From positions 8,390,095 through 8,454,094 of the forward strand of contig JAJEKV010000063.1 of NCBI GenBank assembly GCA_021234155.1: 64,000 bases of DNA, written 5' to 3'. Positions within the stretch are counted from its first letter, which is position 1, and the number at the start of each line of letters is the position of its first letter. A program made the position numbers and the translations under genes. The notes under the pieces were generated by a model, which worked only from the letters and a program-made list of their open reading frames with translations, was not told where the DNA came from and did no database searches. This DNA comes from Isoetes taiwanensis (Eukaryota; Streptophyta; Lycopodiopsida; Isoetales; Isoetaceae). Shown here one piece after another: positions 4,426 to 52,890 of the stretch.

Positions 4426-5399
4426 TTTTAATGCATAAGAATGACTTCAATACAATAGAATTAATTGTCATAAATGGTACAAGAGAATGCAGGTTTTTTC
4501 TCAGAAAAATTGTCAGACTGTCTAAAAAGATTTGGCCTGATATTTATACTGGCAAAATTTCTAACGAAAAACTCTCTGACGCATGTAGTGATGATGCTGC
4601 ATTAGAACATTCATCAACTTATTCGTCAGATTGTACGTCAGTATTTGTATTAGATTTTTTTTTTTTTCTCTCTCTTTATTATAAGTAGTGATGGAATGCA
4701 GTATTATATGTTGCTCAAAATATTTTTGAATGCAAGAGATAAAAATTAAAAGTACACCTCCTATTGGAGATATCTAGCATTATAGCAGGGTTTTTTTTTT
4801 GTGATTTTATACGCTTTTTGGCATGGTTTTCCTATGATTTTAGTGCTGTATTCATTGGGCCATACTAAATAGTATTTCTAGAGTGCGGCTTTTTTGGAGC
4901 GTTGATCTGGATTACCTTCAACAATCTAACGGTTGTTATTTTGACCTCTTCATTCATATGCATGAAACTAGAAAAGTTCTCTTCTCTGAAAAGTTTTGGT
5001 GGTGTTGTTGTCGATCCGTCCTATTGATCCGTCTTGCTCTGTCTTCATTCAACAAATTTGGTATGCCAGATATTGCTTTTTTGTTTGCTAACAATGTTTC
5101 TTGTTTTAATCGTATTTTGAATATCTAGCATGAGTATGGCGAAGAAGCATTCATAAAAAAATCCATTGTTGATTCTGTTTTACAACCTTAGTTCCCTGAA
5201 TTTTATGATCTTTGATGGCAGATATTCATCTTATTGGAAAGAAATGTATCTTGTGATCTTTGATGGCAGATGTTCATCTTATTGAAAACAAAATGCATTG
5301 GTAGATTTCAGATTTGGTGTTGTTTTATTTGGTGTTGCTTTTGGAATTCCGAAACCTGCATGCAAATATCTAGCATGCAAAATTGGAATTGGAGTTGGA
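4426..5399. other. Intergenic, with first copies of an AATATCTAGCA motif
   Basis: No gene is recognised. The decamer TATCTAGCAT and close variants appear at about 4771, 5122 and 5366, all in plus orientation. They continue beyond this stretch at 5781, 5984, 6038 and 6048, just left of the HUH-endonuclease gene. Confidence 0.4.
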
Positions 5400-5727
5400 G
5401 CAGAATCTGCCTGACAGAAATTGGCCGCCATATCCAGATCTTGCAGTTTTTCCTTAAGTTTATCTTCCTGAACTTTACCTCTGAAAACCATTGGCCCCTC
5501 AGGCCGAAACTCGAGCCATGACTTCACTTTATTAAGGGCAGAATCTGCCTGACAGAAATTGGCTGCCATAGCCACATCTTGCAGTTTTATCCTAAGTTTA
5601 TGTTGATGAACTTTACCTCTGAAAACCATTTGCCCCTCAGGCCGAAACTGGAGCCATGACTTCTGTTAAGGAGCAGAATCTGCCTCACAGAAATTGGCCG
5701 CCATAGCCAGATCTGCTGAATTTTTTT
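5400..5727 (-). repeat. Tandem repeat, about 137-bp unit x 2.4, coding-like on minus strand
   Basis: Units start at about 5400, 5538 and 5673, giving periods of 138 and 135 bases, both multiples of three. On the minus strand two full units and the start of a third stay open (5629-5279) and repeat a 45-46 residue peptide with cores FRPEGPMVFRGKV and MAANFCQADSA. A stop lies between the third and second units. The in-frame period and conserved peptide suggest decay of a protein with internal repeats, or a coding exon amplified in tandem. I do not recognise the protein. Confidence 0.7.
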
Positions 5728-6037
5728 TATGTAAACCCTTCGGAATCTGTGTCTAGCATGCTAAGATAATTTCTTTTCAATATCTAGCAACACCAGAGTT
5801 AAATTCGGCCCTCAGATCGCCCTATTCGATCGGCTTTGCATGCCTCCTTGTAAGCAGCTGCCATGTTCGATTGAACAAACTCTAACGGTGCCCTAATATC
5901 CGGCTGTTTCGAAAATCCCATGCTTCCTGACCTTTGCTTTCTTAACTATTCACCTAAAATTTAAAATCTCGCCCTTCCTTTCAATATCTAGCATTATGCC
6001 CATTCTTTAAGTTTGTATGGAAAAATGAAATGCTACA

Positions 6038-6062
6038 ATATCTAGCAATATCTAGCATTATA
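6038..6062 (+). repeat. Left copy of 18-bp inverted repeat (6045-6062)
   Basis: The exact 18-mer GCAATATCTAGCATTATA at 6045-6062 is present as its reverse complement at 8444-8461. The two copies bracket the HUH-endonuclease gene. A second AATATCTAGCA lies immediately upstream (6037-6047), so the left side carries the core motif in tandem. This is a candidate terminal or subterminal element signal. Confidence 0.65.
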
Positions 6063-6192
6063 TCATCTACCATATTACTTTTTATGGTTTACTAGTATTA
6101 CAAGCTTGTATTACTCGTATTATTACTACCATTACTAGTTATTAACAATTGTGTTGTTCTTTTAATGCTAGATATTAGATCTAGATATTACA

Positions 6193-8290
6193 ATGAGACG
6201 AATGGCACGAAACAGACGAGGCCCAGGCTCAACATCACGAACGGGAGTCATGCAGGCAGAAGGCATCACGTATGAGATAAATCACCCTGCACAAGAAAAT
6301 GTCGTGGAAGCTGAAGAGGCCCAAATCAACGAACGTGTCGGGGTATTTTGCAATATATTACATCTTAATAAGTCTCCGCCACGTCAAGATCCCGGACCAT
6401 CTAGCCCTATTAGAGATTGCAGTCCTATCAGGCAGACAAGAAAAGGAAAGCAACCTCTTATTGAAGATGATGATACAGATTTGATTAGCATTCATACGTC
6501 TAGCCCAAGTGACACAGATTATTTTGAAAATAACCAAAGAAAAAAAAAAAAGAAAAAGAATAAAGAAGCAAGGGAAGAACAAGCAACAACGCAAAACTAA
6601 ATGGCCAGTTGGTGGAGATGTATCCATAACAATAGGAATTGGGGGCACAGATATCGACCCAAAATTGATAGATAATATCCTAGAGTTCTTTATTGAGCAT
6701 TGTCATGCATACTAGTTGCAACAGAGCGTGGATCAAATCTAGATCATTTGCACTTCCAAGCCACAGCCAGACTCAAAACAATAGGAGTCCGGGATGCTGC
6801 AACATTACTCAAAGTAGCCCGGGGATGTCACATAGTTTAAGGCGTATATACCATGTGAGTGAAAGGGGTGGATTTTTTTTTTTTACCCTAAACCGTATGT
6901 ATAAATACGGATAGGGGCTCGGCTAGGGGGTTTTCTGGGCGGGAATCTAGTGCAATATGTATACGGGAAGGGGCGTTTAGAAGGTTGGACAAGGCGTAGG
7001 GTTTTTTGTTGACCCCATTAACGCATGTGGTGTATCACCTTTATAGTAGGTGAAACCCCCGGGCAAAGTAGCTATGAGATGGAACACCACAAAGCCAGCT
7101 GGAGCCAAAATAATGTGCAGGACGCTGAAGGACACAAAGCTGCATTGCTTTGAAGGTATGCTAGGTTATTGCATGAAGGACTTTGGAAAGCCTCATTTCA
7201 GTGTGCGCATGCATAATGTCTCATCAGCAGAATTGATGAGAGGGAAAGAAAAATATGCGCTGTATGGAGCAGGAGAAATCAAAGATGAGGTTTGTCTAGA
7301 TCCTAAAAACTTACTCATTAAAGTCCGTCACTTTGCGAATTATCACATGACCAATCGTCGTAAGCCATCATTGACGTTCACAATCACAAAGATGATCAAA
7401 ACAGGAAAGTTCTATCTCAGCACACAATGGGCTATACCTACTAACGACCAAAACGTAGACCAAAGAAAAGTTGAAGCTGCATATGATCTAATGATGAACC
7501 CATTCCAAGCAACCCGTGAGAAAGTATCGTTAGTTCTTTATGGGCCACCGACTAATGATCCAGCATGCCCGTCAAGAGCCTGTAGCAGTAATCCATTTGC
7601 TAATCCCCCAAGGTACTTTGACGACAACGAAGATCCGGACGAAATCATTGAAGCACATGTTGCAGACAGACTCCAAAATACAATTGTAGTTGGAGATTTG
7701 GGTGATAACGAAATTATCCTCACCAACTGGAACTCATCTTTTGCAGCAGAGTGACACTTACGGGTATTGAATAGAACACTATAGTAATTGTCATCTAGTT
7801 TAATATCTAGTATAATAACATATTATTTCATTACGTTTTTATTTGCTCAATCTCATCAATTTGTTTTGTTAACGTGCAGGTTGTAGAAGCCCCCAATGAA
7901 TCACCTCCACGTGACATCCTCGTCATTCCTGAAGTAAACAATAATGTGGAGCCAGAAACTATCATAGTACCAGAAAGCCCAACAGTTGAAGTTCAAGTTC
8001 AGTTAGTTTCTCCGCCATCAGCACAACCACCACCTCCACATGGCGAGGACCCTATTGACGTTATGTCACTGTGGTTAGTTGGATATATCAATGACATGCG
8101 CTCGTCTATGCAACAAATCCGTAACGCACTGAACTCAATTGAGAACATTCTTGATGCGCACATTCGTTTGGACATAGACCAGTGGAGGCAATTACGTGCG
8201 CAAATAAATAGGCTAACTGCCCTCTGCAGGTTGTTTGATAGGCAAATCAACGAAGATGTGTATCACATCTTAAGTCGCTATCCATATTGA
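6193..8290 (+). pseudogene. Replitron-like HUH endonuclease gene (Rep, single tyrosine), decayed
   Basis: Four open blocks fit one gene. Block 1 (6193-6600) has a basic, low-complexity N-terminus with a poly-Lys tract from A-runs at 6539-6560. Block 2 (frame of 6509-6715) contains VSITIGIGGTDI, a possible Rep motif I. Block 3 (6715-6840) contains RGSNLDHLHFQA, a HUH-type motif II with the two His codons at 6745-6747 and 6751-6753. Block 4 (7050-7754) contains GYCMKDFGKPHF, which fits motif III with catalytic Tyr at 7167-7169 and Lys at 7176-7178 (YxxK). A last block, 7880-8290, follows an acceptor-like TTAACGTGCAG and is Pro-rich then helical. A GTGAGT donor at 6855 and an acceptor near 7046-7049 could bound an intron. 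Frame changes at about 6545 and 6713 and a TAA at 6838 indicate decay, unless more introns are present. No helicase domain is seen, unlike Helitrons. HUH plus a single Tyr without helicase matches published Replitron transposases, but the family name is an inference. Confidence 0.6.
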
Positions 8291-8443
8291 ATGCTTATAA
8301 ATGGATATACTACGTTTACTATCTCCAATGACTAAATAAATTCATAAATAATATGTTCTTAAAGCGTATGTAATAAAATTACATTATGGTATAATATTAT
8401 AGTTCGTTACTTATGCTTCATATTAGTATTTATTTTTATTTGT

Positions 8444-8461
8444 TATAATGCTAGATATTGC
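8444..8461 (-). repeat. Right copy of 18-bp inverted repeat
   Basis: TATAATGCTAGATATTGC is the exact reverse complement of 6045-6062. It lies about 150 bp downstream of the last HUH-gene block and forms the left edge of a 340-bp module that is repeated elsewhere in the window. Confidence 0.65.
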
Positions 8462-8785
8462 TACATGTTTTACATCCGACATATTATCAATTACACAACA
8501 TAACATCAACTCATCCAAGTGTAATGTAATGTTGTTTGTTTTTGGAGGGGCAAATTTTTTTTTTAGCTATAACACAAACCATTACATTACACATCTTAAA
8601 ATTAAATTCCCCCTTAAACCCCCTTTTGTTTGGGTGCATATTCACACGGAGGGTGACGTAGGGCAACGAGAGTTGTTGGATAGGCATATTCACCCCTTAT
8701 TCCTTAATCTACACCGTACACAAAGTTCCTCGTTTGTGGAGTATGGATGTATGGAATTTGCTATACTGTATAACAAGATTTGGAA
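8448..8785 (+). repeat. Dispersed ~340-bp module, copy 1
   Basis: From CTAGATATT at 8450 to ATAACAAGATTTGG at about 8783, this segment closely matches the reverse complement of 50411-50751, with scattered substitutions and small indels. Shared landmarks include AATTAAATTCCCCCTTAAA, GGGTGCATATTCACACGG and GGATAGGCATATTCACCC (one base differs in the second copy). Both copies break off near the same points. It is non-coding and could be the right arm of the HUH-encoding element, with the second copy a non-autonomous derivative. Confidence 0.75.
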
Positions 8786-9490
8786 AGGGTAAGGTCTATT
8801 GGAAAGGGTTTTTTGAAATAATATATTCTACCAGCGTTTTCGGCCATTGAAAATCTGGAACTGTAGTGTCACCTAGATCTTCTTGTGAATCTCAATGGTC
8901 TTACAGAAAATGGCACGGTGCATGAGCTGGTATATTGCCTGGATTGCTAGTCAACAGTTTGTTAGGGTTCGTACTGCTCAAGCATATGCTCTACGACATT
9001 GGATAATTCAGTATTTTGAGGTTATATACTGCATCCAGCTCTAGAACCAAGACATGTTGCGCATTGAGCCATCTGGCTTAGAAAAGCTTAATCGAAAGCC
9101 AAGATATTGTAGTTGTTCCTACCAGCAAGTATTTGAATCCATTTGAATCCGTTACTGATCAGAACCCTGAGGCTGCAAGCTCTAGTGAGAAATTAGCTAT
9201 GCAACATGCATGCCATGGAGCAATCTGGAGGCAGCACCAGAACTGAAGTCATGGATAAATCTTCCCATCTCCAATTGGTTCAATTCTGATCAATCTGGTG
9301 CGAGCGTATCCTCCACAACAAAACAAGCTTCTTCCCCATGGAAAACCCCTTTCCCAAGAAATCCAGAATAATATTGTAGCATTTATATAATCTAACAATG
9401 ATCTTGCATGCATGCACATACTGCATGCATGGACACATTGCCTGCATGTATTCCTAGCGCATAATCATTTATTTCATCATTGAAAACACA
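8786..9490. other. No recognised gene
   Basis: No open frame of note is present. The sequence becomes AT-rich with CATGCATG-type short palindromes around 9410-9440. It is probably flank between the HUH element and the Gypsy relic. Confidence 0.45.
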
Positions 9491-49980: not shown

Positions 49981-50410
49981 TTGGACAGGTATCATCGAGA
50001 TTTTCTTTTTTTCTTTTTTTCTTTTGATGGAAAGGATTTTTTTTGTATTTTATAAATAAAAAGTACATAGTACAATGTTTCAAATTTCATAGAGGACTAC
50101 TATAGGAGAAGCCTCGACATCTTCCCCCATGAACTAGAACTTAGTGGATTGAGCAACATGAAAATAAAAGAAATACAAGACAGAGGTGATAGATAACAAA
50201 ACCTGATTCTCAATGTCCTCTGAATCGACTAAAAGAGTTACCTAATAGAGGGTGTTTTCGACTTCCATTATCCATCAAAGAGCCCATGCATCCTTGATGC
50301 AGCAGACATCGTGGATCTAGAACAGTCACAATCACTTCTACCTGTATATAACTTTTGAAGCAGGATAGGTAGACAAGCCATATCACCAAGCGGCCTGAAA
50401 TCTTATAGTA
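49981..50410. other. No recognised gene
   Basis: A T/C-rich stretch (TTTTCTTTTT) at about 50004-50050 is followed by anonymous sequence. Nothing else is supported. Confidence 0.45.
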
Positions 50411-50751
50411 TTTTGCAAATCTTGTTATACAGTATAACAAATTCTGTACATCCATACCCCACAAACGAGGAACTTTGTTGACGGTGTAGATTAAGGAATA
50501 AAGGGTGAATATACCTATCCAACAGCTCTCGCTGCCCTACGTCACCCCCCCGTGTGAATATGCACCCAAACAAAAGGGGGTTTAAGGGGGAATTTAATTT
50601 TAAGGCGTGTAATGTAATGGTTTTTGTTATAGGTTGAAAAAAATTTTTGCCCCTTCGGGGCCAAAAACAAACAACGTTACATCACACTTGGACGAGACGA
50701 TGTTATATTGTGTAATTAATAATATGTCGTATTTTTACTGAAATATCTAAT
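50411..50751 (-). repeat. Dispersed ~340-bp module, copy 2
   Basis: This is the inverted counterpart of 8448-8785, aligning from CTATTAGATATT (minus, 50753) to ATAACAAGATTTGC (about 50415), where the two copies diverge. No HUH gene is next to this copy, and the left flank of copy 1 is not shared. It may be a non-autonomous or solo derivative. Confidence 0.75.
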
Positions 50752-51699
50752 AGGCCTGATGGCCCCGTGGGTGGAAATAAACAACTGCTTTCTTAGCAAT
50801 CTAATATTGGCTTATAGCAACATGCAAGGGTTGGTTGGCATAGTGAGATAACAAAAATAAAAGAGTAAGAAATGCAAGGCCAAAAATGTTACTTTCAGAT
50901 ACAAGGCCATAAGAGGGTCTTCTTGCAGGGATAGATTCCCTATCAACATTGCTTGGAAATGCAGTGCAGTTTATTATTTAAAAACAACCTTGTTGAAAAT
51001 AAACTACTTGAATCAGATGTGGAAAGCCTTGACCTTAACTCCAGCATAAGATTTAACACCAGCATAAGATGACTAAGTTGTGCCAAAAGCTCGACGATTA
51101 AATGATGATTAAATTTGATACTAAGCATGTGCAAACAGAAAAACATCACATAGAACCTAGAAGCAAGCATAAATTACCCAGTATATGTATGCAACCGATA
51201 TGATTTGGAATATTAATATACATCACAGACATGGCTGATTCCAAGTTAGCTTCCCACCAAGATGATATACATCGCAGACATAGCTGATTCCAAGTCAAGC
51301 TTCCCACCAAGATAAAGATCATGCAATACCCAGGGTATTTGAATATTCACTTATATAAAGTGACACATGCTGTTGGTCACCGCAGGGTCTCGTCCCATCA
51401 TCTTGAAATTGAAGCTGATCCTAAGGTCAATCGTTGAAGAGGATCTGCAAACTGTGCTATATGAACATAATTGAGTTGCGTGCCCAAAAGCAGGTGTGCT
51501 TGGGTATAGGCATACCTCTTTGGCTTTGCATCATGTTTGAGGACATGATTGCCTGGTGCAACCACACTTGGTTGCTCAGTCCTTAGCAATCTCTGTTGAT
51601 AACAACAAACAAACATTCTAACTTGAACAAAATTGTACAGAAAAAAAATGCACCCAGGATGAAAATATCAAACATTATAAAGTGCCCGACCTGGATGAA
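50752..51699. other. Anonymous stretch with a 49-bp tandem duplication
   Basis: A 49-bp unit containing AGCTTCCCACCAAGAT is repeated at 51221-51269 and 51270-51313. A 72-codon minus frame at 51616-51398 begins after an acceptor-like ATCAACAG and could be an exon remnant, but its product is not recognised. Confidence 0.45.
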
Positions 51700-52010
51700 T
51701 CCTGTGGGGAGTATCACCGCTCAATCTGCAAGATGTGTTCCGGCAGAGCGGGTCCCTCTTGAAGCTCAAGTCGGGGCTAAGGGAGTTCGGCTTCCGCATG
51801 GAACACCACAGACTGCTGCAAATGGGAGGGGATTACCTGCAGCAAAGCAGGGCATGTAATCTCCACAAATTATTTGGATGCCAGTGTGCCCGTTTCTACC
51901 CCGGGCGTGTCGCATGCAATTATCCGATGTTGGAGCTTCATTCGGCTTCCCTCCATAGCGTGCTACAACTTTTTGCAGGGATTTTTTACGCCCAAATATC
52001 TTCTCGGACA
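51700..52010 (+). pseudogene. LRR receptor-like protein N-terminal fragment
   Basis: Across two plus-strand frames the segment reads LLKLKSGLREFGFRM and then NTTDCCKWEGITCSKAGHVI followed by VPVSTPG. This is the LRRNT_2 cap of plant LRR receptor-like kinases and proteins (ALLxFKxGL...DCCxWxGVxCxxxxGHV). Signal peptide, LRR repeats, transmembrane and kinase parts are missing, and a frame change divides the cap. It is a decayed fragment. Confidence 0.65.
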
Positions 52011-52890
52011 AAAAGATTAGCCTCTTTTGTTTCAACCAAGAAGCTTCTACTACGTTCTTTCCAGGCCAGCCCTCTTTTGGGTTATAAGTGCTTCATACCT
52101 GAAGAATGAATTGTGAGAAAAGCACCATACCAGAATTTCATAAACCCAGACGTCTCAGCACCAATTACTCGGCTCACTAATTACCAGGTTGCAAATTCTG
52201 TGGTCTTAAATGTGGACAACCATGATCCCATCTACTTCAGCCATTCCAATCTTTCCTCGTCTGACAGCTCGGGTTCAACTTTAGGTTGGGGTCCTGGTTA
52301 GCATCTTTCTCGATTTTTGCAAAGAAAAGATCCGACCCATCAGATTCCATGAATCAGAAACCAAGCAAAGCTAAACCTTATCTGCCATAGCCGAAAAAAG
52401 AAGTAAAAAACCCAGCAAAATCTTTACCTTCTCTGCCATAGCCGGATTTGTGCCGGGATTTCCGGCTGTAGGCTGCTCAAACAAAGTCCCGATGACCCTA
52501 GCCCTGCTCAAAAAAGAACAATTACTCTAAAATATTTGTCCGAGTCTTGCACAGCAATTTAGGCTGAACAATCGAGAACAATTGTTAAGAAAAGAATCGG
52601 CCATGAATAAAGCCCCGACTTTTGAAACCCTAAAACAATTTTATCGACATCTGCATGGCTCCAAAACTCCATGACCATAGGATTGCATTTCTTATTCAAA
52701 ATCAACGGCTCAGAAAGAGTGCACTCTAGATATACCGTTTAGTACATCTGCACGAATACAGCAATGAAATCATAGTAAAACCATGTCAGAAAAGGTATAA
52801 AAACACAAAAGTAACCCCCTGTTATTATGCTACATATTTAACATGTACGTGATTTAACTAGTATGCCCCGCACCGGATAGCAAAATGATG
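52011..52890. other. No recognised gene
   Basis: A short frame at 52113-52301 (plus) follows the LRR fragment but shows no LRR. TTATCTGCCATAGCCG/TTCTCTGCCATAGCCG is duplicated at about 52379 and 52430. Confidence 0.45.

Follow-up and report, generated by a model that had tools for sequence, protein, structure and literature searches.

The element described here appears to be a dead copy of an autonomous-type Replitron, belonging to a large family in a lycophyte genome for which we propose a nick-and-hairpin mechanism, and we give this joint reading a probability of about 0.85. Membership in the Replitrons is well supported by sequence comparison; the mechanism at the 3' end is what we infer from the copies. 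Replitrons, mobile elements that cut one strand of DNA, were reportedly first described by Craig in PNAS in 2023, and how they move has not been tested in the literature that we found. The window, the whole stretch of DNA analyzed, comprises 64,000 nucleotides (positions 8,390,095–8,454,094) of an Isoetes taiwanensis contig. A sequence-only reading had assigned the interval 6193–8290 to a transposase gene. That interval does cover the genes, but the element itself runs from 4770 to about 8786. The true ends of the element, a MITE-like insert and a 3' palindrome are additions to that reading. WIN denotes the window copy, L followed by a number another genomic locus, and F1 the family of the window copy. 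The features of the window are as follows.

4770–8786, plus strand: whole Replitron copy of family F1, broken; the left boundary is common to sister copies and the right boundary is the last base matching the inverted palindrome model
4770–4787, plus strand: left terminus ATATCTAGCATTATAGCA, with the putative HUH nick site directly 5', placed by the alignment break common to copies
6193–6818, plus strand: transposase gene, N-terminal part from MRRMARN... up to HUH motif II, with a frame shift, by alignment with sisters L010, L017 and L019
6745–6759, plus strand: HUH motif II, HLHFQ, in frame 1; identical residues in four sister ORFs
6819–7064, plus strand: MITE-like insert within the HUH domain, between 8-bp repeats AAAGTAGC (6811–6818 and 7065–7072); the site is empty in sisters
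7050–7751, plus strand: open frame in frame 0 with the second half of the HUH domain (PF21859) and the C-terminal region; its first residues derive from the insert
7164–7181, plus strand: motif III, GYCMKD, read from the sequence within that frame; Tyr codon 7167–7169, Lys codon 7176–7178
7811–8290, plus strand: second frame, a predicted-helical C-terminal segment, either a separate ORF or a 3' exon, with a similar ORF in other families
8441–8458, minus strand: inverted copy of the left terminus, 18 bp (ATATCTAGCATTATAACA on the minus strand), read from the sequence
8567–8672, plus strand: left arm of the 3' palindrome, by match to the palindrome model
8673–8786, plus strand: loop of the 3' palindrome, inverted (flop) and truncated, by match to the flop model; the right arm is absent
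50393–52838, minus strand: second Replitron-type element, about 2.4 kb, with a left end about 78% like that of the family

HLHFQ followed by GYCMKD, the motif order on which the sequence-only reading was built, is present in the window copy. The two motifs are in different frames because the insert and its 8-bp repeat place 254 bases between them, which is not a multiple of three. The ATG at 6193 agrees with the MRRMARN start of the sister ORFs. Motif III has a single tyrosine, in LHCFEGMLGYCMKDFGK, and its tyrosine and lysine are invariant in a four-row alignment of two families. The window ORF matches Pfam Replitron_HUH (PF21859) at 45.7 bits (E 1.1e-11, profile positions 68–127 of 128) against a cut-off of 28.5 bits, so that the protein proposed at 7050–7754 falls inside the HUH group. 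Sister ORFs match positions 2–127 of the 128 at 70.0–74.9 bits (L010, 451 aa, E 9.8e-21; L022, 5.2e-20; L009, 3.1e-19). A Pfam scan of sister ORFs of 442–451 aa found no helicase and no further domain above cut-off; Replitron_C (PF21860) lies at a plausible place in three of them with 17, 14 and 16 bits, below its cut-off of 27. The claim of a single-tyrosine HUH enzyme without helicase, Replitron-like and not a Helitron, is thereby borne out, and no Helitron model was matched in Pfam. Sequence searches of the PDB with the window ORF, with the four-row transposase alignment and with the four-row second-frame alignment returned no HUH match.

Judging by its coding sequence, the window copy is dead, with frame shifts upstream and an HUH domain split by the MITE-like insert, which agrees with the partial degradation noted before. 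The stretch 7050–8290, earlier described as largely open, consists of two open frames (7050–7751 and 7811–8287), not one. The copy measures about 4017 bp with the 246-bp insert included. At the insert site L019, L020 and L023 are uninterrupted, and the only BLAST match to the insert in 26 fetched F1 loci is a 47-bp piece in L010 at 81% identity. In the genome, all 40 scored matches (the window's included, from 356 candidates) cover the insert from base 1 to 245 or 246. Its ends are of the CCGGGG type and its target duplication is 8 bp. The insert is a common genomic repeat in its own right. The inverted copy of the left terminus sits upstream of the 3' palindrome and is changed or absent in several sisters.

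A protein search of the host genome (1,658,258,908 bases in 1110 contigs) gave at least 154 matches, a lower bound with 150 scored of 3202 candidates, and several copies have open frames of 440–451 aa. The host genome thus does hold relatives elsewhere, part of them with unbroken frames, and the objection that the gene has no other copies falls. We fetched 20 copies as 10-kb stretches and six places found through the left end, together with three copies of F2, a second family, 701 downstream bases at each of 18 loci, and four stretches belonging to other families. The 39 loci chosen by protein match, a subset of the 154, are WIN with L009–L028 (21 loci) and L038–L055 (18 loci, selected for matches reaching near the end of the protein). 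Sister L016 is about 4.1 kb long, and forms without the HUH gene are 1.4–2.8 kb. The second element of the window (52838–50393) has a 3' region of the family type and a middle without similarity to the fetched copies.

On the intact sister ORFs, dN/dS indicates purifying selection. For ORF1 it is 0.07–0.45 in 15 pairs, with L010 against L022 at 0.07 and dS above 1. For ORF2 it is about 0.2–0.3 between subfamilies (L010–L023, 0.21; L011–L014, 0.20); close copies and L013 give higher values. In other-family loci L035, L056, L058 and L059 the HUH match is likewise followed by a similar ORF; hhalign of the F1 second frame against those ORFs gives a weak match (E 2.9e-4, probability only 40). Nothing in the second frame scores above cut-off in Pfam. 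GT/AG splicing trials between ORF1 and ORF2 in seven sister copies gave no donor convincing in all (the anchor was not found in L036).

One left boundary is common to most copies whose end could be seen. Alignments break at base 4770 in WIN, L010, L011, L013, L015, L016, L019, L020, L021 and L023, and L022, L009 and L026 also begin there, which makes 13 of 21 protein-chosen loci. The base before the terminus is usually A in sisters and is G in the window copy. At the other eight loci homology begins inside the element (base 12 in L025, 52 in L014, 261 in L018, 386 in L017, 657 in L024, 1022 or later in L028, 1245 in L027, and not at all in L012), with truncation and nested insertion not told apart, which limits the evidence for a precise 5' end to the copies that have this end. 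Tandem repeats of about 270–330 bp, varying in number, occupy the 5' non-coding region in L029 (518–1073), L033 (519–1453) and L031 (522–1121, all on the element strand).

Right ends are ragged. Among 27 readable ones, eight stop in the loop of the 3' palindrome (WIN, L012, L020, L022, L023, L040, L046, L049), four in the right arm (L013, L015, L019, L024), and 15 lie within 12 bases of the end of either palindrome model, or 12 by the better-scoring model alone, as L048, L052 and L053 are full only by the lower-scoring one. L016 and L017, among the 15, are the models themselves; L010, whose stretch is cut at the locus end, and L051 were left out of the count. About 200 bp past the element's own right end in L016, its 3' region recurs in inverted orientation, tail to tail (7369–7843, element strand).

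Short target duplications hold for 15 copies as a group only, single cases being weak. With a search allowing 8 bases either side of the right boundary, the mean flank match of the 15 copies with both ends is 3.07 bp, against 1.94 (sd 0.35) for re-paired flanks, and a value as high came up in one of 5000 shuffles. Six of the 15 copies match over at least 4 bases, against 11% in re-paired flanks. Some matches fall within what was counted as element, 8 bases before the boundary in L023, 7 in L019, 5 in L022 and 6 in WIN, where TTGGA is the weaker candidate duplication. The truncated end of L031 has the candidate TTAA, L011 has no flank match, and by eye the second copy of the window has no target duplication.

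Within the F1 copy at L018 sits a gene-less element that carries the family's left-end type and the palindrome as one unit. The insertion site is uninterrupted in sisters, with 6–9 bases unaligned across the junction, and no clear target duplication was found for this nested insertion. In L026 and L032 the right arm is cut at ...CGTGTG and joined exactly to the left end of another element, AATATSTAGCA; in L032 the remainder of the first palindrome is absent after the second element. Since GTGTGAATATGCACC is the usual sequence of the right arm, AATAT occurs both there and in the left end. AATAT(G), 5–6 bp, is thus a candidate terminal direct repeat, and most readable right ends lie elsewhere. 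The head-to-tail junctions suggest nick sites at both places, in two cases that microhomology could explain.

The second frame is followed downstream by a palindrome of about 400–440 bp, whose arms enclose an asymmetric loop of about 180 bp. Self-BLAST finds arms of 117–132 bp at 87–97% identity in L009, L014, L016 and L017, and shorter arms of 51–70 bp at 82–86% in L013, L015 and L018. As single-stranded DNA, the hairpin of L017 has a predicted energy of -124 kcal/mol, compared with -39.9 (sd 4.1) in 100 shuffles. The palindrome occurs in two orientations. In the window copy the flop model is matched over 3–218 of 396 positions (89.5%) and the flip model over 3–108 only. The 39 protein-chosen loci divide into 28 that can be oriented, one with part of the left arm only (L051), and ten without a downstream palindrome (L021, L025, L026, L027, L038, L042, L044, L050, L054 and L055); in L026 a palindrome lies upstream of the left end instead. 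Of the orientable 28, 23 are flip and five flop (WIN, L010, L011, L046, and L048, the last resting on 74% identity). One of the six copies chosen through the left end, L031, is flop, as is the second element of the window, which is cut inside the loop. At L013 (2200–2285 and 6551–6692) an F1 element apparently lies within the palindrome of another element, about 130 bp of which is missing.

A second family, F2 (L035–L037), shares 51% amino acid identity with the window ORF over residues 6–175, and L035 matches Replitron_HUH with E 8.8e-22. Its 3' palindrome, about 280 bp, shows no alignment to the F1 palindrome. It has one orientation in L035 and L036 and the opposite one in L037, where the outer part of the second arm is missing. 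The F2 target duplication is 0–2 bp by eye and not convincing. In the 2.3 kb fetched, no long 3' palindrome appears in L058 or L059; L056 has a single 90-bp pair (80%), and L057 does not align with L056 and is unclear. A long 3' palindrome is thus clear for just two families, F1 and F2.

We propose that the HUH enzyme would nick 5' of the left end and stay on the 5' phosphate, that the nicked strand would be displaced, and that its 3' end would fold into a hairpin. Insertion of the strand would then be exact at the 5' join, and at the 3' join some of the hairpin would often be lost. In the window copy the hairpin was probably inverted and truncated on insertion, and the MITE-like element split the copy later. 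The parvovirus-like hairpin step is less sure than nicking at the left end. By analogy, the 3' end might be replicated by hairpin transfer, the palindrome folding and priming synthesis and the HUH nickase resolving the product, with inversion before insertion; we offer this tentatively. It would give a transposon an end like a parvovirus telomere, the 5' end fixed by a protein–DNA bond and the 3' end ragged. With its common left boundary, one nested copy, derivatives that lack genes, and 3' ends in flip and flop, this large family makes such a model testable from sequence.

The palindrome could instead be a separate fold-back element or MITE that entered an ancestor close to its 3' end and flips through recombination between its arms. 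Flips of this kind are nothing unusual in inverted repeats and could have happened in place in L011 and L048, which are inverted and have both arms; in addition, palindromes lie apart from the following or preceding F1 gene in L009 (2591–2977), L026 (2861–3196) and L016 (7369–7795). However, pairwise alignments of fetched copies rarely continue past the palindrome, the gene-less element in L018 joins it to the left-end type, and the palindrome that F2 carries at this end is a different one. Moreover, four inverted copies (WIN, L046, L031 and the second copy of the window) end within the loop and lack the right arm. Unless that arm was lost later, exchange between arms in place cannot account for their orientation, and the flip preceded the right end. 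We therefore find a separate palindrome element unlikely.

Other identities for the element fare worse. HUH chemistry, a 3' hairpin and a plant host would suit a Helitron or a fragment of one. Helitrons, however, have Rep and helicase in one protein, a combination that Pfam does not find in the window ORF or the sister ORFs, and the single tyrosine, the Replitron_HUH match and the short flank duplications on average make this origin close to negligible. An endogenous Rep gene of a single-stranded DNA virus, to which the HUH and YxxK motifs and the parvovirus trait of flip-flop hairpins might point, is very improbable given many copies with a common left boundary and no viral Rep or helicase domain in Pfam. 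None of 36 pattern-matched viral-contig stretches encodes a relative, with patterns that reach near relatives only and may omit records near this genome.

The description of Replitrons in a review (PMC10741241) gives a length of 0.9–4 kb, target duplications of 2–8 bp and short direct terminal repeats of 5–11 bp, and already lists Isoetes taiwanensis, a lycophyte, as a host. The F1 elements resemble the Replitrons of that description in their HUH transposase without helicase, the absence of terminal inverted repeats at the very ends, a size around the 0.9–4 kb range, short target duplications and a lycophyte host. They differ from this short account in the long palindrome with two orientations, the ragged right ends and the second frame; their terminal direct repeat is only a 5–6 bp candidate, and L016 is slightly longer than 4 kb. 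The 3' palindrome is absent from the review's short description, its novelty being unproven, and literature searches (Replitron; HUH endonuclease and lycophyte; rolling hairpin and transposon) gave nothing more on Replitron ends. With Helitrons, as outlined in the same review and generally understood, F1 shares an HUH endonuclease and a hairpin near the 3' end. Unlike Helitrons, F1 has no helicase, one tyrosine, a far larger palindrome and target duplications. Parvovirus rolling-hairpin replication, as far as PMC12297876 describes it, likewise combines an HUH/YxxK nickase with a palindromic end in flip and flop. Unlike a parvovirus, F1 is a transposon without recognized helicase or capsid, and just one of its ends shows the long palindrome. 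Should the hairpin step prove real, it would link a transposon of eukaryotes to the way in which single-stranded DNA viruses replicate.
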